DNA of 64,000 bases from positions 124,001 to 188,000 of the forward strand of contig CALHGZ010000001.1 of assembly GCA_938031175.1 (NCBI GenBank), given 5' to 3'. The stretch is from Candidatus Kapaibacterium sp. GTDB taxonomy: Bacteria; Bacteroidota; Ignavibacteria; Kapaibacteriales; UBA2268. This document shows, in pieces, positions 34,356 through 50,805 of this stretch. Every line of letters begins with the position of its first letter. Positions within the stretch are counted from its first letter, which is position 1. The notes under the pieces were generated by a model. The model made no database searches. It was given only the letters and a program-made list of their open reading frames with translations, and was not told the origin of the DNA. The position numbers and the translations under genes were made by a program.

Positions 34356-34382
34356 GGGGGTGCATTAGCACCCTTTTTTTTT
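34356..34382 (+). terminator. Rho-independent terminator after gcvPB
   Basis: Stem GGGTGC (34358-34363), loop ATTA, GCACCC (34368-34373), then nine T (34374-34382). It closes the fatty-acid/rnc/gcvPB transcription unit. Confidence 0.93.
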
Positions 34383-34487: not shown

Positions 34488-37400
34488 ATGATGCTTAAAC
34501 GTATATCATTTTTGATAAATTTAATATTGATTTGCTTTTTACTTTCGAATAATCTTTATTCACAGTTTGGTAAAAATAAAGTTCAGTATGAAGATTTCGA
34601 TTGGAAATATATAGAAACCAAGCATTTTGAGGTATTTTACAATAAAGGTTCCAAATATCTTGCAAGTTTCGTTGCAATAGAGGCTGAAAATGCACTCCGT
34701 TCTATTCAATATACACTCAATTTTACGATAAACAACAAAATAATCATAATTGTATATGATACACATAATGAATTCCAGCAAACCAATGTAATTGGACAAT
34801 TTATGCCAGAAGGCATAGGTGGGGTAACCGAGCTTTTTAAAAATAGAGTAGTTATTCCATTTCAGGGTAGTTATAGTCAATTGCGTCACGTTGTTCATCA
34901 CGAATTAGTGCACGCGGTGATAAATGATATGCTATATGGTGGAACTTTTCAATCAGCTCTAACCACATCAAGTGGAATACAATTTCCCTTATGGATGCAT
35001 GAAGGGTTGTGCGAATGGGAGAGTATTGGCGGGATGGATACAGATACGGATATGTTTATGCGTGATTTGACTATTAGTGAATATTTACCACCACTTGAGA
35101 GATTAAATGGATATTTGGCTTACCGTGGTGGTCAAACATTCTATTGGTATGTTGCAGAAAATTACGGTGAACAACGAGTTGGTGAGTTGATTAATAAATT
35201 AAAAGTCAGTTATACATTAGATGCAGCTTTTAAAAGCACTTTCAATATGTCATTAGAAGAATTCTCCGAAAAGTGGCAAAAAGATTTGAAAAAGTATTAT
35301 TGGACGGATTTGGACATTTTCCAAGATGTAACTGATTTTGCAACAGCAATCACAGACAGAAAAAAAAGAGGTAATTTTTACAATTCTTCTCCGGCAATTT
35401 CACCTGACGGAGATAAAGTGGCTTATATTTCTGATAAAAAAGGTATTTTTAGTGTTTTTATACAAAATATTGATGATAAAACTTCCGCTCGTGAACTTGT
35501 GAGTAGCTTCAGGCGTCAAGATTTTGAGGATTTAAATATACTAACTCCGGGTATCTCGTGGAGTCCAGATGGCAAAAGATTAGCAATTTCTGCTAAAGCA
35601 GGAGGAGAAGATGCTGTGTTTTTAGTCGATGTTGCCACCGGTAGATATCAAAGGTTACTCTTTGGTTTACGCTCGATTACATCAGTTGATTGGTCTCCAG
35701 ATGGAGATAAACTTGCATTTATCGGTATAAAAGATAATAAAAGCGACATATATGTTTATAAATTCTCAACTGATTACTTGTACAATTTAACCGATGATAT
35801 TTTTAGTGATGCAAACCCTGTTTGGGGTCCCGATTCTGAAACAATATATTTTATTTCCGATAGAGGGGATTTCACTGAAACAGGAATAAATCACACGTTT
35901 AGAATCTGGAATCACTATTATGAAAATTCTGATATTTATTCAATTAATCTGATTACTAAGAAAATAAAAAGATTGACTTTTGATGGTGATTATAAGAAGA
36001 CATCAATTGCAATTTCGAAAGATAATAACAAACTAATTTTTACATCTGATAAGAACGGAATTAGTAACATTTATATTTTGCAATTAAGTACAGGCGAAAT
36101 TAAACCACTAACGAATTCGATTCACGGAATAACCCAATTATCATTATCTCGGGATGAAAGCAAACTTATATTTACTGGTCAAGTAAAAGCCGGATACGAT
36201 TTATATTTAATTCGATATCCATTCAATAGAGAATTAAAAGTTGACTCACTTCCTTTGACTAAATTCCGTCGTAGTTGGTTAGAAAAAAGAGGTTTAATAG
36301 CTATTAAGCAAGAGCAACCTGAAATTATTTCTGAAGCTGAAGAAATCGAATCTCACTATGGCAAATTTCAAGTATCTTTCGATAATCAACAGGTTATACA
36401 ACCAAACCCAGATGTAGTTCAGAGAACAGATTTTTATCGACAGTTTGCAACAAAGGGCGAAAATTATAGCGATACTGATTTTGTTGAGCGTGATTACAAA
36501 ATCAGATTTACTCCGGACTTAATATTGGGTAATCCTGGATATAGCACTTACTGGGGCTTTCAAGGTATTACCCAAATGCTTTTTAGCGACGTTTTAGGCG
36601 ACCATCAGATTTATATACTAGGTAATCTTTTGCTGGATTTAAGAAATAGTTCCTTTTTTGTTTCGTATTTGTACTTACCAGAAGTAATAGACTATCAGTT
36701 TAGTATTTTCCATAGTGCAGGATTTGTTTATAGATGGTATAGAAGTTCAATTTCTGAGCGTCCTGAGAATGTGCTTTTTAGATTTAGAAATTGGGGTGCT
36801 TCGATTCAAGCAGCATATCCTTTTGATTTGTTTACTCGGGTTGAATGGGGTTTGAGTTGGCTTAATTTATCTAAAGAAAATATAGACAATCCGCTTTCTA
36901 ATCTCAATGTAAGCAGAATGCTATTTGTACCTGAAGGAAGATATGTATATGATGATGTATTGTATGGAATGTTTGCACCTGTGCTTGGATCAAGATTTTA
37001 TATAGGTTTTAAGGGTACACCGAAATTATCTGCTGATGGGATAGGATTTATGTCTTTGACTGGTGATTTTAGACATTACATACCATTATGGGATTATTTG
37101 AATTTAGCCATACGAGGAACTCTCGGAGCAAGTTTTGGTCCTAATCCGCAGCGTTTTTTCCTTGGTGGCACTGAGAATTGGATAAATGCAACTTTCCGTG
37201 ATAATTTGTTACCATTCGATCAACCTGAAGATTTTGCTTTTATGGAATTTGTAATGCCTCTACGTGGTGTTAGTGTAAATGAATTAAATGGCTCAAAATT
37301 TTTCCTTACAAATATAGAATTTAGATTCCCATTGTTTAGGGCTTTATTAGCTGGACCAATTCCAATACTTTTCCAAAGTGTTATGGGGGCTATCTTTTTA

Positions 37401-37610
37401 GATGTCGGTGGTGCTTGGGACAAAGATTTTTATGCAACGAGGAAAAATCAATTCAATGAAACAGTACCTAACCATTTGCTTATGAGTACAGGAATAGGGG
37501 TAAGAGCATACCTTTTAGGCTTGCCATTGAAACTCGATGTTGCTTGGCAAAATCTGTATCATAATTGGACACCGCCAAAATATCTTATATCGCTTGGTTT
37601 AGATTTTTAA
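34488..37610 (+). CDS. Outer-membrane protein: MA-type peptidase, TolB-like propeller, Omp85-like barrel
   Basis: A 1040-residue protein with a signal peptide (about 1-26). A metallopeptidase-MA-like domain follows: HELVH at 138-142 and HEGLCEWES at 171-179 (E172 or E176 as third ligand). Next come PD40/WD40-like propeller repeats (about 295-610) with 'SPDGDKVAYISD', 'SPDGKRLAIS' and 'SPDGDKLAFIG' turns. The C-terminal half (about 670-1040) is rich in alternating beta strands and ends in a barrel-like '...LDF' terminus, with FFLGGTENW typical of surface-antigen/BamA-type barrels. It may be an outer-membrane barrel with a periplasmic protease-propeller head. Substrate unknown. An SD (GCAGGA) precedes the start. 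Confidence 0.8.
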   Translation: MMLKRISFLINLILICFLLSNNLYSQFGKNKVQYEDFDWKYIETKHFEVFYNKGSKYLASFVAIEAENALRSIQYTLNFTINNKIIIIVYDTHNEFQQTNVIGQFMPEGIGGVTELFKNRVVIPFQGSYSQLRHVVHHELVHAVINDMLYGGTFQSALTTSSGIQFPLWMHEGLCEWESIGGMDTDTDMFMRDLTISEYLPPLERLNGYLAYRGGQTFYWYVAENYGEQRVGELINKLKVSYTLDAAFKSTFNMSLEEFSEKWQKDLKKYYWTDLDIFQDVTDFATAITDRKKRGNFYNSSPAISPDGDKVAYISDKKGIFSVFIQNIDDKTSARELVSSFRRQDFEDLNILTPGISWSPDGKRLAISAKAGGEDAVFLVDVATGRYQRLLFGLRSITSVDWSPDGDKLAFIGIKDNKSDIYVYKFSTDYLYNLTDDIFSDANPVWGPDSETIYFISDRGDFTETGINHTFRIWNHYYENSDIYSINLITKKIKRLTFDGDYKKTSIAISKDNNKLIFTSDKNGISNIYILQLSTGEIKPLTNSIHGITQLSLSRDESKLIFTGQVKAGYDLYLIRYPFNRELKVDSLPLTKFRRSWLEKRGLIAIKQEQPEIISEAEEIESHYGKFQVSFDNQQVIQPNPDVVQRTDFYRQFATKGENYSDTDFVERDYKIRFTPDLILGNPGYSTYWGFQGITQMLFSDVLGDHQIYILGNLLLDLRNSSFFVSYLYLPEVIDYQFSIFHSAGFVYRWYRSSISERPENVLFRFRNWGASIQAAYPFDLFTRVEWGLSWLNLSKENIDNPLSNLNVSRMLFVPEGRYVYDDVLYGMFAPVLGSRFYIGFKGTPKLSADGIGFMSLTGDFRHYIPLWDYLNLAIRGTLGASFGPNPQRFFLGGTENWINATFRDNLLPFDQPEDFAFMEFVMPLRGVSVNELNGSKFFLTNIEFRFPLFRALLAGPIPILFQSVMGAIFLDVGGAWDKDFYATRKNQFNETVPNHLLMSTGIGVRAYLLGLPLKLDVAWQNLYHNWTPPKYLISLGLDF

Positions 37611-37617
37611 ATTATTT

Positions 37618-38058
37618 ATGCAGTTAAACGAGAATATAAAAGTTTGTTCTGCTTGTGGTGGTATTTGCTGTAAATCCAGTGGGGGATTAGTTTTCCCTGA
37701 AGATTTTGGGGAGATTAATCTGAATACATTAATCCAAGTGTTTAAATCAGGTTTGTATGCAGTTGATTATCTTGATAGCAGAACTAATGAAATGAGTTCG
37801 GATTATTATATACGAACTCGCCTAATTAATGCAAAAAAAGTTTTTGATCCTAAAGGTAATGGTCAATGTGTAATACTTACGGAAAATGGATGTAAATTAA
37901 GTTTTCATCTTCGTCCTAAAGGATGCAGAGAATTAGTTCCTAATCCTCCTAATTGTTATTTCCCCAATAATAGTATAAATTTAAAAACTTGTGTGGAAGC
38001 TTGGAAACCATACGAACACTTAATTGAAGAGGCGTTCAGAAGCATAGATGAATACTAA
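37618..38058 (+). CDS. YkgJ-like cysteine-cluster protein
   Basis: A 146-residue protein with a cysteine-rich N-terminus CSACGGICC (10-18) and further Cys at about 82, 90, 102, 112 and 122. This matches the CxxCxxxCC pattern of YkgJ-type putative zinc/iron-binding proteins. Nothing nearby suggests its role. Its stop overlaps the convergent VWA-OmpA gene's stop by four bases. It lies seven bases after the stop of the barrel protein, so probably shares its transcript. Confidence 0.72.
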   Translation: MQLNENIKVCSACGGICCKSSGGLVFPEDFGEINLNTLIQVFKSGLYAVDYLDSRTNEMSSDYYIRTRLINAKKVFDPKGNGQCVILTENGCKLSFHLRPKGCRELVPNPPNCYFPNNSINLKTCVEAWKPYEHLIEEAFRSIDEY

Positions 38059-39548
38059 TTTTCTATGATAATGAATTCTGTTCTACGGTTTATTTTCCGA
38101 TTTTCTTCAGAATCATTTGGAACGAGGGGTTTTGTTTTTCCGTATCCTTCGGTTTTTAATCTGTCTGGATTTATTCCATTTTTAACCAAATAATCATAAA
38201 CGGCTTTGGCTCTTTGTTTCGACAATTTTAAATTGTATTCGTCAGAACCTATGTTATCAGTGTGTCCGCAAATTAAAATTTTCATTTTTGGGTATCTATT
38301 CAATGCATCAATCACTTGATTTAGCAAAGGTATTGATTGTGGGAGAATTTCAGCTTTATCATATTCGAATTCAATGTTCAGGAAAGCAGTTGTCCCAATT
38401 GGATCATATTGTGAAAGTATTGATTTATCATATGTTCCTTCGCAATAACTTACTGCATCAGCGATTTTAATATTAAGACCGACAGTATGCACAGAAGGGC
38501 AAACGGGTGGTTTGTATTTAATTTTATAATAATTTTTGAGTTTGAAAAAAATATCGGCAAAAACATAGAGGAATTCTTTGCTTGAAAAAATTTGATAGAA
38601 ACGACCCTCAGTATAATTAGCAATTTTTTTCATTATATTAGTTTCTGCAAAGCCAAATGCAATTGTATAAACTGTAATATTATTCGATTTAAGTAATTTG
38701 AGAACAGAATCAACATTTATTTTAGAGGTATTGTCCATACCATCAGTAAATAAAATAATGATTTTTTGATAATCTTTAGGGCTATTTTCAAATTCTTTTA
38801 TTGAACTATGTAATGCATCGTAAATCGAGGTTCCAGAACCATATCTTCCTGCTAATCCATCGGTTATAATTTTTGCTCTTGTTGAATCGATATTAGGACT
38901 AAGTTTTAATTCGTGGTGAATTTTTTGTGTAAATTTGATAAGCGATATGAGATTGTTGCTGTCCAAAACTTCAGTAACTTTTTTTACAACTTGCTGTAGG
39001 AGTTTTGCTTTCTCATGTCCCATAGAAGGTGAATGGTCAAGCAAAAACACAATTGAGTGTTTATCAGCTGTTACTTCTCTGATTTCAGTAACGCTGAAAT
39101 CTTCGATATTAGCTTTTTCATTATTACAGGAATCAGTCAAAATATTCCAAATAGATTTGTAATTTTCAGTTCCGGTGTAATAGGGAGGAGCTAAACCAAT
39201 TATATATCTATTCTCATTGTCAAAAACTTGAACGTTTATAATGATTTCATCAGGATAATTTGTACTTTTAATAGCAATAATTTCGGATTGAATTGTAAAA
39301 ATCTTTGAACTATCAATGTCTTGATTTTTATTGCTGTATGATAAATTAAATTTGCTGAAGTCAAGGTAGTTGCCAAAAGTTGTTTTATAAGTTGGTTTGT
39401 AGTTGCCTTTTTGAAATAAGCTATCTGGGAATGCATCGTCAAGTTGTTTTACAATTTTATGAGGGCAACCGCTAAAGAGAAAAAGAAAAGGGAGGATAAG
39501 AATAATTACAACATTAAATTTAAATATGACTATTTTAAATTTTTTCAT
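38055..39548 (-). CDS. Lipoprotein with VWA and OmpA-like domains
   Basis: A 497-residue lipoprotein (lipobox SGC, Cys28). A von Willebrand A domain (about 165-345) has a MIDAS motif DHSPSMG (D-x-S-x-S form) and FTDGMDN. A C-terminal OmpA/Pal peptidoglycan-binding domain (about 385-497) shows FEYDKAEI, GHTDNIGSDEYN, LSKQRAKAV and NRRTEF. It probably sits in the outer membrane with the OmpA domain bound to peptidoglycan and the VWA domain as a protein-binding module. Its start overlaps the TPR gene's end by 14 bases, so both are one unit. Confidence 0.88.
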   Translation of the reverse strand: MKKFKIVIFKFNVVIILILPFLFLFSGCPHKIVKQLDDAFPDSLFQKGNYKPTYKTTFGNYLDFSKFNLSYSNKNQDIDSSKIFTIQSEIIAIKSTNYPDEIIINVQVFDNENRYIIGLAPPYYTGTENYKSIWNILTDSCNNEKANIEDFSVTEIREVTADKHSIVFLLDHSPSMGHEKAKLLQQVVKKVTEVLDSNNLISLIKFTQKIHHELKLSPNIDSTRAKIITDGLAGRYGSGTSIYDALHSSIKEFENSPKDYQKIIILFTDGMDNTSKINVDSVLKLLKSNNITVYTIAFGFAETNIMKKIANYTEGRFYQIFSSKEFLYVFADIFFKLKNYYKIKYKPPVCPSVHTVGLNIKIADAVSYCEGTYDKSILSQYDPIGTTAFLNIEFEYDKAEILPQSIPLLNQVIDALNRYPKMKILICGHTDNIGSDEYNLKLSKQRAKAVYDYLVKNGINPDRLKTEGYGKTKPLVPNDSEENRKINRRTEFIIIEN

Positions 39549-41343
39549 CTCTGAGTTTTCTAATTTTATCCCTCACTTCTTGCAGATAAATTGATCTTGG
39601 GTATTTGCTCAAAATTGTTGTAAAAGTTTGAATAGCGGATTCTTTTAAGCCTTCTTCCATATAAGAATTACCGAGATGTAATAAGGCTAAATCGCCATAA
39701 ATAGATTCGGGATAGATTTCAATGAATTGAGTAAGTAACTGTCTTGCATTAGGGAAATCTTTATTTTTAATTAAGATTTTACCTGCTCTTAAAAAGCTTA
39801 ATTCAGATAGATCCTCTCCTTTGTATTCAATTGCTAATTGTTTGTAAAGATCTATGGCTTCTTTGGTATTTGTTTGAAGTTCTTTCAATTCTGCCAAAGC
39901 AAAAGTCTTTAAAGCAGCTGTAAGATGCTTATTTTTTTCGATTATTACAATTTTTTCAATAGCATCGTTTGAAACGTCAGAACCCGTGTTCAAAGCAATC
40001 TTCTTAAATAAGGTCAAAGCTGAGTCAAGTTCCCCTTGGTAATAGATAATTTCAGCAGTTTTATACTCTGCGTATTCAAGTTGTGAGGTCGGTGAAGTTT
40101 TGGGATGAGATGAAACTACCTTTTGATATGAATTAATAGCTTCTTCAAGTTTATTAAGATACAAGTAAATGTCACCCATCAAATTCATTGCAGCAAAGGT
40201 AACATTGTTGTTTCTGTATGTATTGATAAGTTCATTAAGTACAGTAATTGCTTTTTCAGATTCATTCAAATAATTATGATATAAGAAAGCAATTTGATAT
40301 AGACTATTTGAGGCTTCGGGCAGATTCTTGAAATCACGTGCGATTGTTGAATATCTGTCAATAATACTAAGAACTATTTCAGGCGTGATTTTAGTTTCAG
40401 TTATAATTTTTCTTTCTAATGTTTTTGCATAACCATATAAAGCAGCAGTGAAATATCTATTGTTTCTACCTTGGTCAATAATTTTTGAGTATGCTTCAAG
40501 TGCAATTGAAAGCTGGTCGTCTTGCCTTGAACGGTCAGCAAAATACAAAATTTCACGACCTTCAGCTCGCTTTAAATTATCAATTTTTATGATGATGTTT
40601 AAAGATTCATTTAAATCACCAATAGCACGAAGGTAATAGGCATAAAGTTCTTGAGTAAAAACGTCATTTGATTTGTTAGTTGCTTCACGCTTTAAACGAT
40701 TTTTTATGTATTCAACAGCTTTAGGGTTGTTCATAAATGCAAATAATCTACCTTGAGCAAATGAGATATGTTTATGTTCGTTAAAGAAATTAAGTATTTC
40801 TTCAGTTCCATCTTGATAATTACCAGTTGCTATGTACAGTTGGCTTAATTCATTTGAAAAAACTGTTGGATTGTTTAATGCTTTTCTTCCAGTTAATAGG
40901 GTTTGTATTGCTTTATCAATAAGCCGCAATTTACTCTGAGATTGAAATACTGCGATATATAAATCAAATGATGGTGGAAATTTTTTAAGAGTTTCGGACC
41001 AAATACGATTGGCTTCTTGATGATTACCTGTCTGCCATAGTACTTCACCATAGAGTGCATTTGTGGTAAAATCAGAAATTACGGTTAATCTTTTCTCAAT
41101 AATATCTTTTAATTCTGAAAATCTATTTAAACTTTGGTAAGTTCTGATAACTGATTGGAAGATTTCGTCATTTTTAGGGTTTACATCTAATAATTCTTTG
41201 TATAATCTTGCTGCATTTGTAAAATCACCGCTTTTTTCATAAGATTCAGCTAATTTAATTTTTTCTCTTATATTTGACTGAGCGTTTAATATGATGGGAA
41301 TGAATAGAAAGAACAAAATTAGGAATAATATATTTATTCTCAT
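39535..41343 (-). CDS. Secreted tetratricopeptide-repeat protein
   Basis: A 602-residue protein with a signal peptide (about 1-22) and TPR repeats across nearly its full length, clear at 25-120 and 380-600, where A-...-Y-...-L/I-P-P patterns recur. A YbgF/BamD-like tail (YPESIYGDLALLHLGNSYMEEG) near the C-terminus resembles CpoB/BamD-type TPRs. It is the first gene of a minus-strand pair with the VWA-OmpA lipoprotein and may act with it in envelope organisation. Confidence 0.75.
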   Translation of the reverse strand: MRINILFLILFFLFIPIILNAQSNIREKIKLAESYEKSGDFTNAARLYKELLDVNPKNDEIFQSVIRTYQSLNRFSELKDIIEKRLTVISDFTTNALYGEVLWQTGNHQEANRIWSETLKKFPPSFDLYIAVFQSQSKLRLIDKAIQTLLTGRKALNNPTVFSNELSQLYIATGNYQDGTEEILNFFNEHKHISFAQGRLFAFMNNPKAVEYIKNRLKREATNKSNDVFTQELYAYYLRAIGDLNESLNIIIKIDNLKRAEGREILYFADRSRQDDQLSIALEAYSKIIDQGRNNRYFTAALYGYAKTLERKIITETKITPEIVLSIIDRYSTIARDFKNLPEASNSLYQIAFLYHNYLNESEKAITVLNELINTYRNNNVTFAAMNLMGDIYLYLNKLEEAINSYQKVVSSHPKTSPTSQLEYAEYKTAEIIYYQGELDSALTLFKKIALNTGSDVSNDAIEKIVIIEKNKHLTAALKTFALAELKELQTNTKEAIDLYKQLAIEYKGEDLSELSFLRAGKILIKNKDFPNARQLLTQFIEIYPESIYGDLALLHLGNSYMEEGLKESAIQTFTTILSKYPRSIYLQEVRDKIRKLRDEKI

Positions 41344-42056: not shown

Positions 42057-45000
42057 TTATTTTATAATCACCATTTGCCTTGTTTCAGTAAACGGACCTG
42101 ATTCAAGCTTATAGTAATAAGTGCCGGAAGGTAAATTATCAACGTTAATATCTATTTGATATTTACCTGGAGATTGGTTTTGGTTAATTAGCTCAGCCAC
42201 TTTGTTACCATAGCTGTCGAATAATGTTAATTTTACATTAGCTTCGAGGCCTATGGAGTATTCAATGGTTGAATTTCTTTCAACTGGGTTTGGCATAGGT
42301 ACAGATAAGCTGTATTCGACACCTGATACTTTGACTAATCTTAATGTATTGACACATACAGGTTGGATTTTTACTAAGCCAGGTATTTCTGTTACGAATA
42401 CATAGGGTTTGCCAACTGGATCGAAATCAACTGGTAAGGGAACTTGTTCAATATCGCTGAGATATACTCTCAATGGGAATTTAAATAATGTTCCTGTACC
42501 TTTCAATGGTTCATTGCTTTCCATGTGCACATATAGATATCTTTCGTCAACAACTTCAGCAGTGATAATCTGCCAACCATCAGTCATAGTTCCATTGGTT
42601 ATAATATCATTTTTGTTGATAACTGAAGGAAATACATCAAAGGTGTTCGTGTTTCTTCCCTCTATTCTGAAGTATATCATAGCTTTAAATTCTTTAATAT
42701 CGGCAAGTTCAAGAGCTTTTTGCTCTTCTTCGTGTTTTGGCAGATTTACATCAATAATTATTTCTTCACCGGGTCTTCCAATATATTTATCTGGGATTTG
42801 GGCTTTGACTTTGTGAATCATACCTTCTCCCCATAAGTTGGAAACGGCATTACCGGCCGAAGAGTTATAAAGTATTTGAGCGTGATATTTACGAACTTCA
42901 AATGGTGTGAAAACAACGTCTAAGGCTAAGGATTCGCCTTCATTGACTGTGATTGGTGGTTGTGGATTAACTGTTCCATTTGAATGTCTAACTCTTATTA
43001 ATTGGAAGAAGTTTTGGTCATCGCCAGTTATTGATAGTGGGTGATCTATAACAGCTGGCTTTGTTCCTAAATTGGTGAAATAAACAGTTGCTTCGGGTGA
43101 TTTAGTTGTTATGTAACGAATTGGGAATGTATGATCAGTTGCTGATACGCCTTCTGTGATTGCTCTTCCGATTAATTCGCCGCGTGGATCTTCTGGTGCA
43201 TCATGGTCGGCAACTAAATAAGCTGTATGAATACCTGGATGTTTAGCAGTGAATTTAATTGGGACTGGCAGCTGATCGCCAGGTTGAATTACCAAAGTGG
43301 GTACTGGATTTTGCACAAAGAAATCAGGATCAATTTCGAATGCATCGGCATCGGGTCCAATGATTTTAAGATCGAATATTGATAATGGCATTTTTGTTAA
43401 TTCGCTGGCGCCAAAGCTGTATAGTGTACCATGACCTTCAACGGAGGTACCAACTAATACTGGTGCTCCGTAATCATGTCCTTCGATATTTATATGAGGT
43501 TGCATTTCAATGCCGCGCAATTCAGCTGAGGCTGTTTTTCGTTCTTTGTTAAATTCGGCTATAAATGTGATGGTTGATACATATTCTTCAACATCGTCTT
43601 TATCGGAAGTCTTTGGTGCAAAGAATACTGGGACTTTAATTGGATTATTTGCTTTTAGCTGTAATGGAATCTTGGATTTATCAATTCTGAATACGCCATT
43701 GAAATCATTTTCGATAACAATATCTATGAAATCGAGTAGGGTACCAGATTCACTATAGTTATCAATTTCGATTTCTGCAGGATATTCTGTGATTCCTAAT
43801 TTGTTGACAGAATAATCATCAATGACACGTCGTTTGTACCAATCATAACCAGTTATATAAGGACCGGCTTCAATACCATTTCCAATCCAAACTGAGTATA
43901 ATTTGCGTTTTTCTGCATTTGATGTAAACCAGGCAGTATCAATATCTGTAGCTCCGGCTTTATCGGGTTTGTACCATACTGTAAATCGGTGTTCTCCGTA
44001 TGGTTGTAATACTATCGGGAATTTGAGGTCAGTACGGGTGAAATGTAATTTATCATTCCATTTGATGGTGTATAATTCAACGGGTAAGTTACTTTCATTG
44101 ATTATTCTTACAGTTTGAGGTTTCTCGTTATTGACCGGAATGTCTTTCCAGGTAGCATCACCAATCCAGACAACAGGTTCGCCTGTTCTAAGCTCGACTT
44201 TTGCGATTGGAAGTTCGTAGCAGGTTAATTCCACATAAATTGAATCTTCTACTGGTTCAGGACTTAATTGAAGTGCAGTACCGCAAACTTCGAATGTTTT
44301 TTTCTCACCTGGTTGTAGAGTATAAGGTAGTCCCTTGACTTTGAGTTCAAATTCAGGTTTTTGGAATTTTAATTTAATTTCTTTGACAGTAACTGGAATA
44401 GGAAATCTCCCGGGATTGCGTAGGGTGATCTCCTGACATTTTGTTTCATTTAAAGCTAAAAGTCCGAAATTGATATAGTCCGGTATTGCTTCGATTTGCT
44501 CTGGGAAATATTCATAGGTTCTCGAAGCTATATTACCTGAACGAGATTGTGCATAAACAGTAGCTTTGGCAGGTTTAGATTTATCTTTAACTGTGAGATA
44601 ATAATTTGCAACTTTAGCTTTTTTGGGGTCAAACTTTTCGACTTCGAAATTGTAATTTTCTTCATCGCTAATCCAGACATTATAAATTATTGCACAAGAT
44701 GAATCAGGTGGAACAACATAAACAGTACCAGTTGCATCACCACAGTCTATTTGGTCAATGATATAGATGGAATCAACACAAGGCGTAGAGTAATTTATAC
44801 CAATTGGATAGCCGTAAGCAAATCCGTCTTTGGAATAGTCCCAGTTGCCATAGGCATAACCAGCGAATTTCGCACCATTTCTACCTTCGACAAAGTGGTC
44901 ACCTTGTCCAATAACTTCAGTTACATAGCTGTAAGGTGTTCCACTAATTTCTTTCATAACATTTCCGAAAACAGCTGGGAAGCTCTTACCATCAATGTAT

Positions 45001-46322
45001 AAATTTTCGAAATGTTCTGTTTTAAATGTAAAGTAAACAAAGTTATCCATACCAAATGGCACTCTGAATACGGAATAATTTGTCCATTGTTCTATTGGAG
45101 TAAGCGCAAACATCATACCTTGTCCATTTCGGGGTGGATTTTGGATTGCATCAGAGGGATCATCCTTTTTATCTGTTCCAACTGTGCTTGACCACCAAGC
45201 TTTTCCATATTGACCAACTAATACAGGATGATTGGCGCGATAGTAAGCAGCTAATTCCTGATTTGTAATGTCATACCATTGACCAGCTTTCATAGTGGGG
45301 GATATCTGGTAAAATCCACTGCCATCTTGACGCATTTGGTAAATTATTGTATTGTCAACAGTAGCAACAAATCGGATGATGTCACCCTTTAAGTCTTCTA
45401 CCATATTTTGTGCGTTGTAATAGCGGTTCAAATATTTGATCGGAGCGGAAATGTATTCTCTACCAAGTAATTCTACGGGCCACATTGCGTCAACCATCAT
45501 ATTTCGCATAAAGTCAGATTTCAAGCTACCAAGAAATACCTCTCTAAATCTTGGGAATGCACCTTTGGTATGACCTGAAATTACTGCAATTGGTTTGTTT
45601 GCTTCGATATATGTCCCTGATAAATCAGTAGCCCAGTCGTGGTTTAGGTTAGGATAAACTTTTGCTAAAATCAGGAAAGTTTCGCCTTTGTTCATTTTTA
45701 CTGTTTTTGTTTCGCCTTTTTTAACACCGCCTTCCGTATCAGCAGTTGGTCTATATTTGACTACTGTATTGTCCTCAGTAGCGACAATGACTATTTGAGC
45801 GGGGTGATATTCGGTACTTCCGGAAGCCATTTTTACACGGTCTTGATACATATTAAGTGTATAGTATTTTGTACCGAGCCATTCTACAGGAGTACAACGA
45901 TAAGCTTCACCAGTCCATTTGTAAGCGTAGAAAACGGAGACGTTAATGGGATCTTTTCCAATTATGTGGACACCTTTAGGTTGAACAACTTCACTTTCTT
46001 TCATTTCGAGAAAATCCGGTACGTAGATAACTCGAACGCGATTAGCTTGTATTGGAAGTGTTTGGGATAGTGTGCCATCAGCTGAGGTCATTGTTATCAT
46101 TGTATTAACTTTGGATGAGACCCACAACTCTATTGGATATATTCCCCATCGGACATTTTCAGTAGATGATCGATTACACTTTGTAAATCCAATCCAATAT
46201 TCACGGCCGTCGTGAATTTGTTCCTGTTCGGGAACATCTTTGTTTGCTTTTAAAGTATTATTAGGAAATGCAAAAAATGCCATCATAGCCATAATGGCAA
46301 TAATGTAAACTGTTTTTTTCAT
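42057..46322 (-). CDS. Giant secreted T9SS protein, IgGFc-binding-like and ASH-type domains (copy A)
   Basis: A 1421-residue secreted protein. A signal peptide (about 1-26) is followed by an IgGFc-binding-protein-like domain (about 38-520) with GREYWIGF and VEWLGTKYY blocks. Several choice-of-anchor-D/ASH-like beta domains follow (PDYINFGLLALNET opens the first near residue 615), then a cohesin-like segment (GRPGEEIIIDVNLP near 1180). A T9SS type A sorting domain ends it (about 1335-1421: PNPVERNSTIEYS... ending MVIIK). Full-length paralogue of the next gene. An AGGAGG-type SD precedes the ATG. Surface or secreted adhesin-like role inferred. Confidence 0.85.
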   Translation of the reverse strand: MKKTVYIIAIMAMMAFFAFPNNTLKANKDVPEQEQIHDGREYWIGFTKCNRSSTENVRWGIYPIELWVSSKVNTMITMTSADGTLSQTLPIQANRVRVIYVPDFLEMKESEVVQPKGVHIIGKDPINVSVFYAYKWTGEAYRCTPVEWLGTKYYTLNMYQDRVKMASGSTEYHPAQIVIVATEDNTVVKYRPTADTEGGVKKGETKTVKMNKGETFLILAKVYPNLNHDWATDLSGTYIEANKPIAVISGHTKGAFPRFREVFLGSLKSDFMRNMMVDAMWPVELLGREYISAPIKYLNRYYNAQNMVEDLKGDIIRFVATVDNTIIYQMRQDGSGFYQISPTMKAGQWYDITNQELAAYYRANHPVLVGQYGKAWWSSTVGTDKKDDPSDAIQNPPRNGQGMMFALTPIEQWTNYSVFRVPFGMDNFVYFTFKTEHFENLYIDGKSFPAVFGNVMKEISGTPYSYVTEVIGQGDHFVEGRNGAKFAGYAYGNWDYSKDGFAYGYPIGINYSTPCVDSIYIIDQIDCGDATGTVYVVPPDSSCAIIYNVWISDEENYNFEVEKFDPKKAKVANYYLTVKDKSKPAKATVYAQSRSGNIASRTYEYFPEQIEAIPDYINFGLLALNETKCQEITLRNPGRFPIPVTVKEIKLKFQKPEFELKVKGLPYTLQPGEKKTFEVCGTALQLSPEPVEDSIYVELTCYELPIAKVELRTGEPVVWIGDATWKDIPVNNEKPQTVRIINESNLPVELYTIKWNDKLHFTRTDLKFPIVLQPYGEHRFTVWYKPDKAGATDIDTAWFTSNAEKRKLYSVWIGNGIEAGPYITGYDWYKRRVIDDYSVNKLGITEYPAEIEIDNYSESGTLLDFIDIVIENDFNGVFRIDKSKIPLQLKANNPIKVPVFFAPKTSDKDDVEEYVSTITFIAEFNKERKTASAELRGIEMQPHINIEGHDYGAPVLVGTSVEGHGTLYSFGASELTKMPLSIFDLKIIGPDADAFEIDPDFFVQNPVPTLVIQPGDQLPVPIKFTAKHPGIHTAYLVADHDAPEDPRGELIGRAITEGVSATDHTFPIRYITTKSPEATVYFTNLGTKPAVIDHPLSITGDDQNFFQLIRVRHSNGTVNPQPPITVNEGESLALDVVFTPFEVRKYHAQILYNSSAGNAVSNLWGEGMIHKVKAQIPDKYIGRPGEEIIIDVNLPKHEEEQKALELADIKEFKAMIYFRIEGRNTNTFDVFPSVINKNDIITNGTMTDGWQIITAEVVDERYLYVHMESNEPLKGTGTLFKFPLRVYLSDIEQVPLPVDFDPVGKPYVFVTEIPGLVKIQPVCVNTLRLVKVSGVEYSLSVPMPNPVERNSTIEYSIGLEANVKLTLFDSYGNKVAELINQNQSPGKYQIDINVDNLPSGTYYYKLESGPFTETRQMVIIK

Positions 46323-46554: not shown

Positions 46555-49500
46555 TTACTTTACAATAGCAAATTTTCTTATATCTTTGTATGGACCTGAT
46601 TCAAATTTTATGATGTAAGTTCCAGAAGATAAGCCAAGTTTATTAGTATCAAATTTAAGTTCGTACTGACCAGGATCTAGTTCCTCGTTGACTAAATCAT
46701 AAAGTTTTTTACCATTATTGTCATAAAGTGAAATTTTTGTCATTGCCTTTATTGCTATAGTATACTCTATCACAGCAAATCCTTCGGTTGGATTTGGAGA
46801 TATATTGGATAAGCCGTATTGCATGCCTGATATTTTGATTAATCTCAATGTATTTACGCAAACTGGGTCAATTAGTATTTCACCAGGTTCATTTTCTACT
46901 ATGACATAAGGCTTGTTGATTGGTTCAAAGGATAAAGGCAGAGAGACTTTATTTATGTCTGTTAGAAAAGTCAATAGTGGGAATTTGAACAATACCCCCG
47001 AGCCGCTGAGGGATTTATTAGCTGAGAAACTTACTTTTAGATATTTTCCTTGCAAAATATCTGCAGAATTTACTTTCCATCCTTGGGTTATTGTGTTTTC
47101 AGTTATTATATCTTCCGGACTGCTGACATTTGGGAATATATCTTCTATTTCTTTTGGGCGACCATCTTCTTTGAATTGAATAACTACATCGAATTCTCTA
47201 ATGTTAGTAGTTTCTAATGCCTTTGACTCATCCGGATGCCTTTCAAGAATTACTTCAATAATAGTGAGCTGACCAGGGTATGAACGGTAATATTTTGGTA
47301 TTTTAGCTATGGTTTTAAATATCATACCTTGACCGGTTAATATTGATACTGCATCTCCTATATCTGTTTTGTAATTGATTTGTGCATTATATTGCCTAAC
47401 TTCACGTGGAGTGAATTTGAGATAAACAATAAGTTTGTCATTTGGTTTGAGTTTGAATGGAGGTATTGGGTTATGTTCATTTGTGGATTCAATTATCCAT
47501 CTTTGAATTGAGAATTCATTTATATCATTACCAGAAACAACAATTGGTGCATTAATTGTAATTTCATCGCTTCCGGTGTTTTCAAGGTATACATATTCTT
47601 CTTGTGATGGTAAAGTAATAAAATGAGTGCCAAAATCCCTATCTATGGCATACAATCCTTGGGATTTTCCCCAACCGATTAATATACCATTCGGATCTTC
47701 AGGTGCATTATGTTCAGCTTTTAAAATGGCAGTATGCCTTCCTGTATGTGTTGCAGTAAATCTAATTGGTATTTTGACCTCTTCGGATGGTTTAATTGTG
47801 AGTGGTAAAGTGTTTTCTAAGAAATTCTGGTCAATTTTAAAGCTGTTTTGCTCTGGTCCTTCAATCCATATATTTGTTACTGTCAAATCCATTTTTGAGT
47901 TGTTATTTTTTATTAAGCTTAAAACTTTACCAAATCCATCTAGTGATTCATTTACAAGTACTGGTGGTGTAAACTCGTAGCCTTCTATACCAATGTGAGG
48001 TTGGAGTTCGCCACCACGGACAAAATCTTCAGCTTCTAATGTTTGATTGGCATCGGCAAATTTGGTTATAAATTTGACTTTAGTTGAGTAATCAGTTATA
48101 TCATCAATCTCATCGGGTTTAGGTCGGAAATAAACCTTAAAACTAAGTGTATCTTCAGGACGTATAATAGTTGGAAATCCCGATTTGTCGAGTTCAAAAA
48201 CACCACCAAAAGAGTCTTCAAGGAATAAATCTACACATTGCAATTCCGTATTGCCAGTGGACCCAATTTTAATAGTTCCTTCATATTGTGTAATGCCAAG
48301 TTTATTAACTGAATAATCATCAATTACTCTTTTCCTTAAGAAATCGAAACCCTCAACCCAAGGACCTGCCTGTATTCCATTTCCAGTCCAATCGGAGTAG
48401 AGTTTAATTATATCAGTTGATGCTTTGAACTCTGCTCTTGTTTTATGTAACACGCCTGGTTCATCAGGAACATAAAATGCAGTGAAGAAGTAAGACTGAT
48501 TGGGGTCAAGTCTTAGAGGTAAAGGTAAATTTTCGACTTTTGGGAAATGTAGTTTATCGGGCCAACTAATTGAATATATAGTAGCTGGGAGTGAACCTTC
48601 ATTACGAATTTCAACCTGTTTTGCTCGCATCATGCCGACAGGTACATTTGTCCAAGTAGCATCGTCTATCCAGATCATTTCTTCTCCAGTTGTCATTTCC
48701 AATCGCACAAGAGTTTCAGTATAGCATTTTAATTCTACAAGTAATGAATCAAATACAAGTTTTGGAGTTTCAGGTAGGGCAGTTGCACATATTGTTATAT
48801 TTATTGACTCGCCGGGTTTTAATGTTTTCGGGAGTGGATAGTTCTCAAATGTGAATTCAGCTTTGTTGAATTTCTTTTTTAAACTCTTAAACTCAAGAAG
48901 AATGTTACCTTTGCTTATATTAGTGAACTTTACTTCTTTGCATACTTTTTCACCAACTTTTAATCTTCCAAAATTAACAAGTTCGGGTTCAACCTTAATT
49001 TCTTCGGGGAAATATTCATAAGTTCTGGTAACAGATTTACCAGAACGTGTCATACTGGTAATAACAGCTTTTGCATATTTTTTAGGATCTATGACTTTTA
49101 ACCAATAGTTGCCTAATTTTGCTTTTTCTCTATCAAAGTTTTCGACAGTAAAATCGTAATTTTCTAATTGGCTTGAACTACTTGTGATAGAAAATAATAA
49201 AGCACAGGCTGAATCGGTTGGTACTACATAGGCAGTGCCATTGACGTCCCCACAAAATTCTTTGTCAAGTACGTAAATTGAATCATCGCATATTGATGCA
49301 TAGTTTATTCCGACAGGATAGCCATAAGCGAAACCATCTTTTGTATAATCCCAGTTTCCATAAGCATAAGCTGCAAATTTATGCCCGCTATCGGCTTCAA
49401 TCCAGTGATCACCAGCGGGTACAGTTTCAGTTACATAAACGTACTTTGTACCAGCTATCGGTGAGATTGAATTACCAAATCTAGCTGTAAGGGGTTGACC

Positions 49501-50805
49501 ATCAAATCTGATGTGATTTAAGGAATTTTCTTCAAAAGTGATATAGACAAAGTTGTCCATTCCACTGGGTGAGCGAAATTGAGCATATCCACACCAGTGA
49601 TCGATGGGTGCTAATATTAAAAGCATGCCCTGACCATTTCTATGCGGGTTTTGTATCTCGTCAGTTTTTGATATAGTTTTTTCATCTGCTCCGGCTGGTA
49701 CAGGTTCGTTCATCCAGGATTTCCCGTATTGAGCAGCGAGAACAGGCTTTGTTGAGCGATAGTAACCTGGATATTCTTGATTGGTTATATTATACCATTC
49801 GCCAGCTTTTAAAGTTGGACTAATTTTTTTGAAGCCTGAGCCATCGTTCCTCATTTGATAAATATCAGTGTTATCTTCAGTTGCTACAAATCTTATTAAG
49901 TCACCATAATCATCAACCGCATAAGAACGTCCTCTTGGTCTGTCAAAATATTTAATAGGAGCTGAAATATACTCTTTACCTAAAAGTTCTATAGGCCATA
50001 GCATTTCGATCAACATATTTCTCATAAAATTAGCCCATCTTTCAACGTAATTAGCTGGCATACCACGTTGATAACGTGGGAAGGCACCCTTGGTATGACC
50101 CGAGAGTACAGCAATTGGTTTTGATGCACTGATGAAAGTTCCGGTTAAGTCAGTTACCCATTCACGTTTGAGATTTTGATAAGATTCGATATCACCTTCG
50201 ATAAGCATTGCGTCGCCTCTATGCATTGTAACTGTACGAACCTGTCCTTTTTTAGCTTTGACTGTGTTAGCAGCGGGTCTGTATGATACAGTTGTATTAT
50301 TTTCAGTTGCTACGATTACTATTTGAGGTGGTTTGAAATCGTTTGTCTGATCAAGATACAGATTTGTTGTAATATATTTTTTCCCAAGCCATTCAACAGG
50401 GATGCAGCGATAAGCTTCGCCAGACCATTTATATGCCATAAAAACAGCGACTGTTATTGGATCAGCTGATTCAACGTGAACGCCATAGGGAGTAATTACT
50501 TCGGATTCTTTAAGCATTAATATATCGTGCATTTCAACAATTGTAGTTTTGTTAGCTTTAATTTCAACAACTTTTACGAAATCAATCGCTGAAGCTGTAA
50601 TTTTTGCTGTTGTATTGACTTTTGAAGATAACCAAAGCATAATCGGGTATTCGCCCCATCTAATTGGTTCATTTGGTGCTAAACGACAATGTGGAATGGC
50701 AAGCCAATATTCTCTCCCTTCAGTGATTTCCTGCTCTTTGGCTAGTAGGTTAATCAATGGAATAATGATTAGGAGTAAAATCGGGAAAAAGTATAAACGT
50801 TTCAT
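46555..50805 (-). CDS. Giant secreted T9SS protein, IgGFc-binding-like and ASH-type domains (copy B)
   Basis: A 1416-residue paralogue of copy A with the same domain order: signal peptide, IgGFc-binding-like N-terminal region (GREYWLAIP...VEWLGKKY), ASH/choice-of-anchor-D domains (PELVNFGRLKVGEK), an 'EGYEFTPPVLVNESLDGFG' block shared with copy A, a cohesin-like part, and a T9SS C-terminal domain (SNISPNPTEGF... ending FAIVK). An AGGAG SD at 50817-50813 on the minus strand precedes it. It has its own terminator, so the two are separate units. Long beta-rich, non-catalytic architecture suggests adhesion or matrix function. Confidence 0.85.
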   Translation of the reverse strand: MKRLYFFPILLLIIIPLINLLAKEQEITEGREYWLAIPHCRLAPNEPIRWGEYPIMLWLSSKVNTTAKITASAIDFVKVVEIKANKTTIVEMHDILMLKESEVITPYGVHVESADPITVAVFMAYKWSGEAYRCIPVEWLGKKYITTNLYLDQTNDFKPPQIVIVATENNTTVSYRPAANTVKAKKGQVRTVTMHRGDAMLIEGDIESYQNLKREWVTDLTGTFISASKPIAVLSGHTKGAFPRYQRGMPANYVERWANFMRNMLIEMLWPIELLGKEYISAPIKYFDRPRGRSYAVDDYGDLIRFVATEDNTDIYQMRNDGSGFKKISPTLKAGEWYNITNQEYPGYYRSTKPVLAAQYGKSWMNEPVPAGADEKTISKTDEIQNPHRNGQGMLLILAPIDHWCGYAQFRSPSGMDNFVYITFEENSLNHIRFDGQPLTARFGNSISPIAGTKYVYVTETVPAGDHWIEADSGHKFAAYAYGNWDYTKDGFAYGYPVGINYASICDDSIYVLDKEFCGDVNGTAYVVPTDSACALLFSITSSSSQLENYDFTVENFDREKAKLGNYWLKVIDPKKYAKAVITSMTRSGKSVTRTYEYFPEEIKVEPELVNFGRLKVGEKVCKEVKFTNISKGNILLEFKSLKKKFNKAEFTFENYPLPKTLKPGESINITICATALPETPKLVFDSLLVELKCYTETLVRLEMTTGEEMIWIDDATWTNVPVGMMRAKQVEIRNEGSLPATIYSISWPDKLHFPKVENLPLPLRLDPNQSYFFTAFYVPDEPGVLHKTRAEFKASTDIIKLYSDWTGNGIQAGPWVEGFDFLRKRVIDDYSVNKLGITQYEGTIKIGSTGNTELQCVDLFLEDSFGGVFELDKSGFPTIIRPEDTLSFKVYFRPKPDEIDDITDYSTKVKFITKFADANQTLEAEDFVRGGELQPHIGIEGYEFTPPVLVNESLDGFGKVLSLIKNNNSKMDLTVTNIWIEGPEQNSFKIDQNFLENTLPLTIKPSEEVKIPIRFTATHTGRHTAILKAEHNAPEDPNGILIGWGKSQGLYAIDRDFGTHFITLPSQEEYVYLENTGSDEITINAPIVVSGNDINEFSIQRWIIESTNEHNPIPPFKLKPNDKLIVYLKFTPREVRQYNAQINYKTDIGDAVSILTGQGMIFKTIAKIPKYYRSYPGQLTIIEVILERHPDESKALETTNIREFDVVIQFKEDGRPKEIEDIFPNVSSPEDIITENTITQGWKVNSADILQGKYLKVSFSANKSLSGSGVLFKFPLLTFLTDINKVSLPLSFEPINKPYVIVENEPGEILIDPVCVNTLRLIKISGMQYGLSNISPNPTEGFAVIEYTIAIKAMTKISLYDNNGKKLYDLVNEELDPGQYELKFDTNKLGLSSGTYIIKFESGPYKDIRKFAIVK

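Follow-up and report, generated by a model that had tools for sequence, protein, structure and literature searches.

The gene described here lies on the forward strand of a 64,000-nucleotide stretch of DNA (the window) from a Candidatus Kapaibacterium sp. (GenBank assembly GCA_938031175.1, contig CALHGZ010000001.1, positions 124,001 to 188,000), and encodes one protein in which a signal peptide is followed by a zinc-peptidase domain, a propeller like that of TolB and a barrel like that of BamA (Table 1). An initial annotation had described the chain in much the same terms (an HELVH peptidase-MA-like domain, a TolB-like propeller and a BamA-like barrel), and both the Pfam searches and the structural matches of AlphaFold2 models agree with it. 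With the protein split in three pieces, all three Pfam families exceed their curated cut-offs on separate parts of the chain: Peptidase_MA_2 (PF13485) on residues 77-267 with 43.4 bits (cut-off 32.4), PD40 (PF07676) with 93.2 bits over 5 stretches, and Omp85 (PF01103) on residues 601-1040 with 44.0 bits (cut-off 24, E 2.7e-11). The last family is missing up to E 0.1 when the whole protein is the query, and reaches 44.5 bits for the same C-terminal stretch in the scan of the organism's own genome. Chance matches were considered and ruled out for all three domains.

The full-length model, built on a 68-sequence alignment, has a mean pLDDT (predicted local distance difference test) of 87.5 and a pTM (predicted template-modelling score) of 0.85, with low confidence in residues 17-27 and 613-656 only. 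Its three parts, whose structure prediction the initial annotation had proposed, were compared with known structures by Foldseek and VIA-align. The propeller matches TolB (Z 27.7, 247 residues aligned, root-mean-square deviation (rmsd) 2.4 A), the barrel matches BamA of D. radiodurans (8xnb; Z 25.3, 316 aligned, rmsd 3.9 A) and of F. johnsoniae (Z 24.8), and the peptidase domain, folded alone on a 46-sequence alignment (pLDDT 85.2), matches the peptidase domains of M9 collagenases (Z 17.3, 228 aligned, rmsd 4.0, 11% identity), the M30 peptidase lugdulysin (Z 15.8) and M1 aminopeptidases (Z up to about 13.7). At the start of the mature chain, G28 is invariant among the 68 sequences, and Q26, F27, N30, K31, Q33, Y34 and W39 are conserved in at least 90% of them.

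Table 1. Features of the gene and of the region directly upstream, in window positions
Feature	Residues	Positions	Strand	Basis
Terminator-like hairpin between gcvPB and the gene		34356..34375	+	weak: 1 site found
Whole gene, 1040 aa + stop		34488..37610	+	open reading frame, no internal stops
Signal peptide, Sec type, lipobox Cys absent	1-25	34488..34562	+	read from sequence; cleavage point inferred; helix 2-19 in model
Conserved start of mature chain, QFGKNKVQYEDFDW	26-39	34563..34604	+	68-sequence alignment
Gluzincin-type peptidase domain	28-286	34569..35345	+	PF13485 43.4 bits; model pLDDT 85.2; M9/M30/M1-like fold
HELVH zinc-binding motif	138-142	34899..34913	+	within helix 129-150 of model
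E172, best third-zinc-ligand candidate	172	35001..35003	+	invariant; within helix 168-180 of model
E176, second glutamate, near-invariant	176	35013..35015	+	107/110
TolB-like beta-propeller	~298-583	35379..36236	+	PD40, 5 stretches; TolB structural match over 281-582
Linker, predicted disordered	613-656	36324..36455	+	pLDDT <50
Omp85-type 16-strand barrel	675-1040	36510..37607	+	PF01103 44.0 bits; DSSP strands; BamA Z 25.3
R926-G927 in L6 loop	926-927	37263..37268	+	RG in 47/47 and 68/68 aligned sequences

By its sequence, the peptidase of the window's protein is intact. H138, E139, H142 and E172 are invariant in all 110 aligned members of its subfamily (rows that include near copies, e.g., L036 and L071) and in 29 of 29 paralogues, and of the 82 open reading frames taken from the 80 named loci all 79 that reach the motif keep both HExxH and E172, the other three being two C-terminal halves and a piece at a contig end. 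The domain thus joins a Peptidase_MA_2 score above the cut-off to an HExxH with a glutamate ligand downstream. The initial annotation had left the third zinc ligand between E172 and E176; in the model the helix with E172 lies opposite the HExxH helix, which makes E172 the better candidate of the two, and E176 is glutamate in 107 of the 110 members. The annotation had also reckoned with the possibilities that HExxH is lost in all homologues or that the C-terminus is no barrel, neither of which was found. The profile of the peptidase domain matches no PDB sequence up to E 1, and the kinship with M9, M30 and M1 peptidases is therefore one of fold only: collagenases and lugdulysin share the gluzincin-like fold, whereas their identity to the domain is 11-19% and they are secreted proteins with neither propeller nor barrel.

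The zinc site is not kept everywhere. We selected 57 further genomes, 30 for the weakest best matches and 27 for more than one match, and examined 50 loci. Two HExxH-bearing paralogue types exist besides the window's type (10 and 19 sequences, whose barrels align to the profile only partly), and two separate clades, of 18 and 3 sequences, have no HExxH and retain the peptidase fold, the propeller and the barrel. The 18 sequences are full-length and come from genomes of the same phylum, outside the window's class. E172 is a glutamate in 2 of the 18, E139 and H138 are present in one each and H142 in none; the RG motif of the barrel is retained, and G28, N100, G127, P167, W169, G173 and G215 are found in all 18. 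Each of them matches a profile of the peptidase alone (E 6.6e-57 to 1.5e-41; among 21 shuffled controls two fell under E 1, at 0.21 and 0.53), and a profile-profile comparison of this clade with the peptidase aligned 252 columns at probability 100. The three sequences of the smaller clade (L040, L041 and L043, from one family of the window's order) sit inside the window's subfamily; they have R138, lack H142 and keep E139, E172 and E176. An alignment error was rejected as the source of these absences, because HE..H occurs nowhere in the whole proteins of either clade.

A quick tree was built from 128 of the 163 rows (columns of the active site excluded, LG+G4, support by SH-like approximate likelihood ratio test (SH-aLRT) only, unrooted); two long rows, L195 and L196, pair up in it, and unusual composition marks 30 rows. 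It requires two changes of HExxH state, and its well-supported branches also force two. The tree alone does not separate gain from loss. For the 3-row clade loss is clear, because fully supported branches place it inside the window's subfamily; in the case of the 18 rows, the shared gluzincin-type fold makes loss the natural interpretation. Genomes of the 18-row clade showed no copy of the window's type, which is partly an effect of selection, since they were picked for weak best matches. There is no clear sign of relaxed constraint in this clade, where the peptidase (mean identity 0.373) is not clearly less conserved than the propeller (0.315), the barrel being at 0.388; its lead over the barrel, seen in the HExxH-bearing subfamily (0.511 against 0.405, with 0.422 for the propeller), has vanished. 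The initial annotation's second option, an assembly factor with an inactive peptidase, therefore does not hold for the window's protein, with its zinc site invariant in 110 of 110 rows, and fits instead the two clades devoid of HExxH. These two clades are natural controls, since their comparison with HExxH-bearing members can part a catalytic from a structural role. The family analysis also links to a recognisable ancestor proteins that Pfam hardly detects, such as the full-length HExxH-less relative L156 (1,106 aa), which matches no Pfam family up to E 0.01. Besides, the genomes G046 and G043 have, next to a normal copy of the window's protein, an additional one on a long branch (L042 and L044, respectively) in which HExxH is kept.

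The gene is present in 59 of 60 related genomes, the own one included (E 1e-20), and in all 53 with a completeness of 90% or more and a contamination of 5% or less, mostly as one copy per genome; such near-universality is the pattern of a housekeeping gene rather than of niche secretion. Across the phylum, 192 of 296 genomes match the profile at E 1e-40, and the 20 listed of the 104 that do not match are all from outside the window's class. The search of genome contigs confirmed at least 249 relatives, of which the best 80 were kept. The record titles of these 80 name Ignavibacteria, Kapaibacteria, Kryptonia, Chloroherpetonaceae, Calditrichota, Neomarinimicrobiota, KSB1, Cloacimonadota, Zixiibacteriota, Balneolaceae and Roseithermus, and the gene is thus found across several phyla of the FCB (Fibrobacteres-Chlorobi-Bacteroidetes) group. 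L118 and L122 are titled Caldisericaceae and Puniceispirillum, and their contigs may be misbinned.

The predicted barrel has 16 strands, as counted from the DSSP line of the model (five 3-residue loop strands omitted, and 706-715 and 717-729 counted as two). Its long L6 loop, residues 884-936, joins strands 11 and 12 and holds R926-G927, which we take to be the RG of the Omp85 VRGF/Y motif. This strand number and RG-bearing L6, together with the PF01103 score, are those of the Omp85 superfamily, and an N-terminal WD40-like propeller ahead of such a barrel is the mark of its WD40-Omp85 subfamily. A BamA-like POTRA region, for which the initial annotation had suggested looking, was not detected: POTRA (PF07244) matches neither the whole protein (to E 0.1) nor its pieces (to E 1), and the same library does detect it in the own genome's BamA. 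The POTRA array by which BamA is defined was thus not found, and the protein stands outside those definitions of Omp85 (not that of Heinz and Lithgow 2014) that demand at least one POTRA. The own genome encodes a separate BamA with four POTRA stretches, and the window's protein is therefore not its BamA. The genome further encodes another Omp85 protein with POTRA and one of the patatin-Omp85 type (891 aa, L147:3313-5985), and at L148:1-1654, the start of contig C9, a pair of short open Omp85 frames (136 and 114 aa) resembles a broken barrel gene. The best other match to the query protein in the own genome is the propeller of an S41 protein (1,110 aa, L051:4032-7361) that is like tricorn protease.

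In Omp85 proteins L6 is extracellular. As eleven strands precede L6, strand 1 would then start in the periplasm, so that by default the peptidase and the propeller of the modelled chain should face the periplasm. A periplasmic peptidase tied to a propeller and an Omp85 barrel would suggest work in the assembly or quality control of the envelope, by analogy with BepA acting in trans. BepA (M48) is likewise a periplasmic HExxH peptidase with a glutamate as third ligand that serves the assembly of outer-membrane proteins, although it is soluble and carries a TPR domain; passages of PMC8423444 have it degrade or promote LptD, and its protease-dead E137Q form retains weakened activity.

With doubts that slightly outweigh our confidence, we propose that the window's protein is a periplasmic peptidase of quality control, tethered to the outer membrane, which also has a role other than catalysis. 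The Omp85 barrel in the outer membrane would carry the propeller and the zinc peptidase where POTRA domains would otherwise be; the propeller may, in the manner of BamB or TolB, hold proteins that are partners or clients, the peptidase may cut misassembled outer-membrane or envelope proteins, and the barrel, or a complex around it, may aid assembly. One chain would this way unite roles that E. coli divides between BepA and the BAM complex, and after the loss of HExxH it would keep only a binding, chaperone or scaffold role. Catalysis appears to be under selection in the window's subfamily, because the zinc site is invariant in a near-universal gene, and the rest of the chain seems to have its own job, because the zinc site appears to have been lost repeatedly while the chain was retained; the cousins without an active site hint at this second job besides cutting. 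A bolder form of the proposal, possible in our eyes yet doubtful, is that of a one-chain machine of the FCB group for both assembly and quality control, in which a degradative zincin is joined to a propeller that holds clients and to an insertase-type Omp85 barrel, and from which the blade was removed at least twice while the machine was kept. Several points weigh against the quality-control proposal. The relation to collagenases is by predicted fold alone, and likeness of fold is no proof of activity; Omp85 barrels can be reused for work other than assembly, PlpD being an example in passages of PMC11116518; and there is no conserved operon partner, the neighbours varying by clade with no Bam or Lpt gene recognised among them. 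In any case, an Omp85 protein of an uncharacterised type matters when it is near-universal in the window's relatives and its peptidase is intact by sequence.

Other interpretations have to be considered. It seems unlikely that the protein is an envelope tether or Tol-Pal-like component, whose propeller would bind an OmpA/Pal-type peptidoglycan-binding partner, whose peptidase would trim partners, and which as a whole would stabilise the outer membrane. TolB carries a TolA box at the start of the mature chain, i.e., at the position that is conserved in this family, and TolB is the closest structural match of the propeller. TolB_N (PF04052) has no match in the own genome (a control was positive in 3 of 14), and passages of PMC12204202 set OMP-TolB-like proteins next to TolB and report that Bacteroidetes lack identifiable tol-pal loci. 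However, TolB_N is also absent from the protein's own matches, the propeller notwithstanding, and the score against the TolB equivalog, 139.6, is below the cut-off of 343.15. No Pal neighbour is conserved, the OmpA-VWA gene beside the window's gene being near in 4 of 127 loci, the own included, and the invariant zinc site is left unexplained by a tether.

Somewhat less probable still is a surface-displayed or released protease, i.e., a barrel that exports its own N-terminal domains, in the type Vd manner once proposed for PlpD, for the digestion of extracellular protein. The initial annotation had offered, as its first option, a protease displayed on its own barrel; taken as surface display this appears unlikely, while the intact peptidase and the predicted barrel stand. 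The enzyme is indeed N-terminal and the barrel C-terminal, the peptidase has a collagenase-like fold, and the N-terminal domains could be threaded through the barrel, as the disordered linker 613-656 is long. Against this, a barrel of 16 strands with L6 after strand 11 would leave its N-terminal side periplasmic, and in PlpD itself the patatin domain turned out to be periplasmic (passages of PMC11116518, where PlpD is not an assembly factor). Neither patatin nor POTRA, which define type Vd, is among the Pfam matches of the protein. The gene, moreover, is near-universal in relatives and mostly single-copy, and two clades retain the chain without HExxH. That the protein is the outer-membrane partner of a TamB-like protein, a TamA-like part of a system that moves lipid or protein between membranes, is quite improbable: a TamB/AsmA gene and then RNase R lie upstream in 15 of the 80 named loci (in 14 of these the strand is the same, and L121 has an AsmA-like gene too), and TamB of E. 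coli has an Omp85 protein as partner, but only some of the sampled loci show the arrangement (others have too little upstream sequence for a decision). In the own genome, moreover, a different contig carries the TamB homologue, next to a TonB-dependent receptor, and TamA has POTRA, which was not detected in this protein.

The proposed quality-control peptidase belongs to an architecture that is partly known. A propeller with an Omp85 barrel is the WD40-Omp85 subfamily of Heinz and Lithgow 2014 (PMC4104836), in which, as here, a TolB-like propeller replaces POTRA ahead of the barrel; the passages of that paper treat the propeller only ("peptidase" occurs 0 times in them), whereas the window's protein has a complete zincin before the propeller. 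OMP-TolB-like proteins (Mol Biol Evol 2025, PMC12204202) similarly join an outer-membrane barrel to a TolB-like periplasmic propeller and are widespread, as this family is, but their adjacent domain is a Rossmann fold instead of a zincin, and "metalloprot" and "Omp85" have 0 occurrences in the main text of that paper. PlpD and other patatin-Omp85 proteins also fuse an enzyme, periplasmic in PlpD, to an Omp85 barrel; theirs is a patatin lipase with one POTRA in place of the zincin and propeller, and passages of the same source (PMC11116518) call Omp85 subfamilies with non-POTRA N-termini uncharacterised. What appears to be new is therefore not the combination of propeller and Omp85 but the peptidase domain and its repeated decay, unnamed in the main-text passages of PMC4104836 and PMC12204202. 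No earlier account of a peptidase-propeller-Omp85 chain is among the literature matches listed, in a search that left most subscription papers and the supplements outside. One Omp85 class is called "metalloprotease" in PMC4104836 and is defined there by PF00149; the label seems mistaken, because Pfam names this family calcineurin-like phosphoesterase.

As to the neighbourhood, the terminator-like hairpin between gcvPB and the gene weakly suggests that the gene is a separate transcription unit, the evidence being weak because 1.7 such sites are expected from shuffles. The gene directly downstream (37618, CxxCxxCC) stands beside the barrel gene in one of 127 loci, its own, by phmmer, 115 of these loci carrying at least 700 bases downstream. 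Upstream, fabF and rnc are each found in 15 of the 127 (some being the same locus twice) and gcvPB in 4, the own included, and loci of Neomarinimicrobiota have other neighbour genes. As operon partners, the 37618 gene, fabF, rnc, gcvPB and the TamB-RNase R pair were each considered, and none yields a function. Further downstream, on the strand opposite to the barrel gene, a VWA-OmpA protein and a TPR protein are encoded with overlapping ends (38055-41343, minus strand). They are followed by a pair of adjacent genes on the minus strand, 42057-46322 and 46555-50805, each coding for about 1,420 aa (the domains of the second being from an NCBIfam scan only). Both products have domains of the choice-of-anchor D/ASH-like kind and end in type IX secretion sorting tails, and that of 42057-46322 has an IgGFc-binding domain as well.

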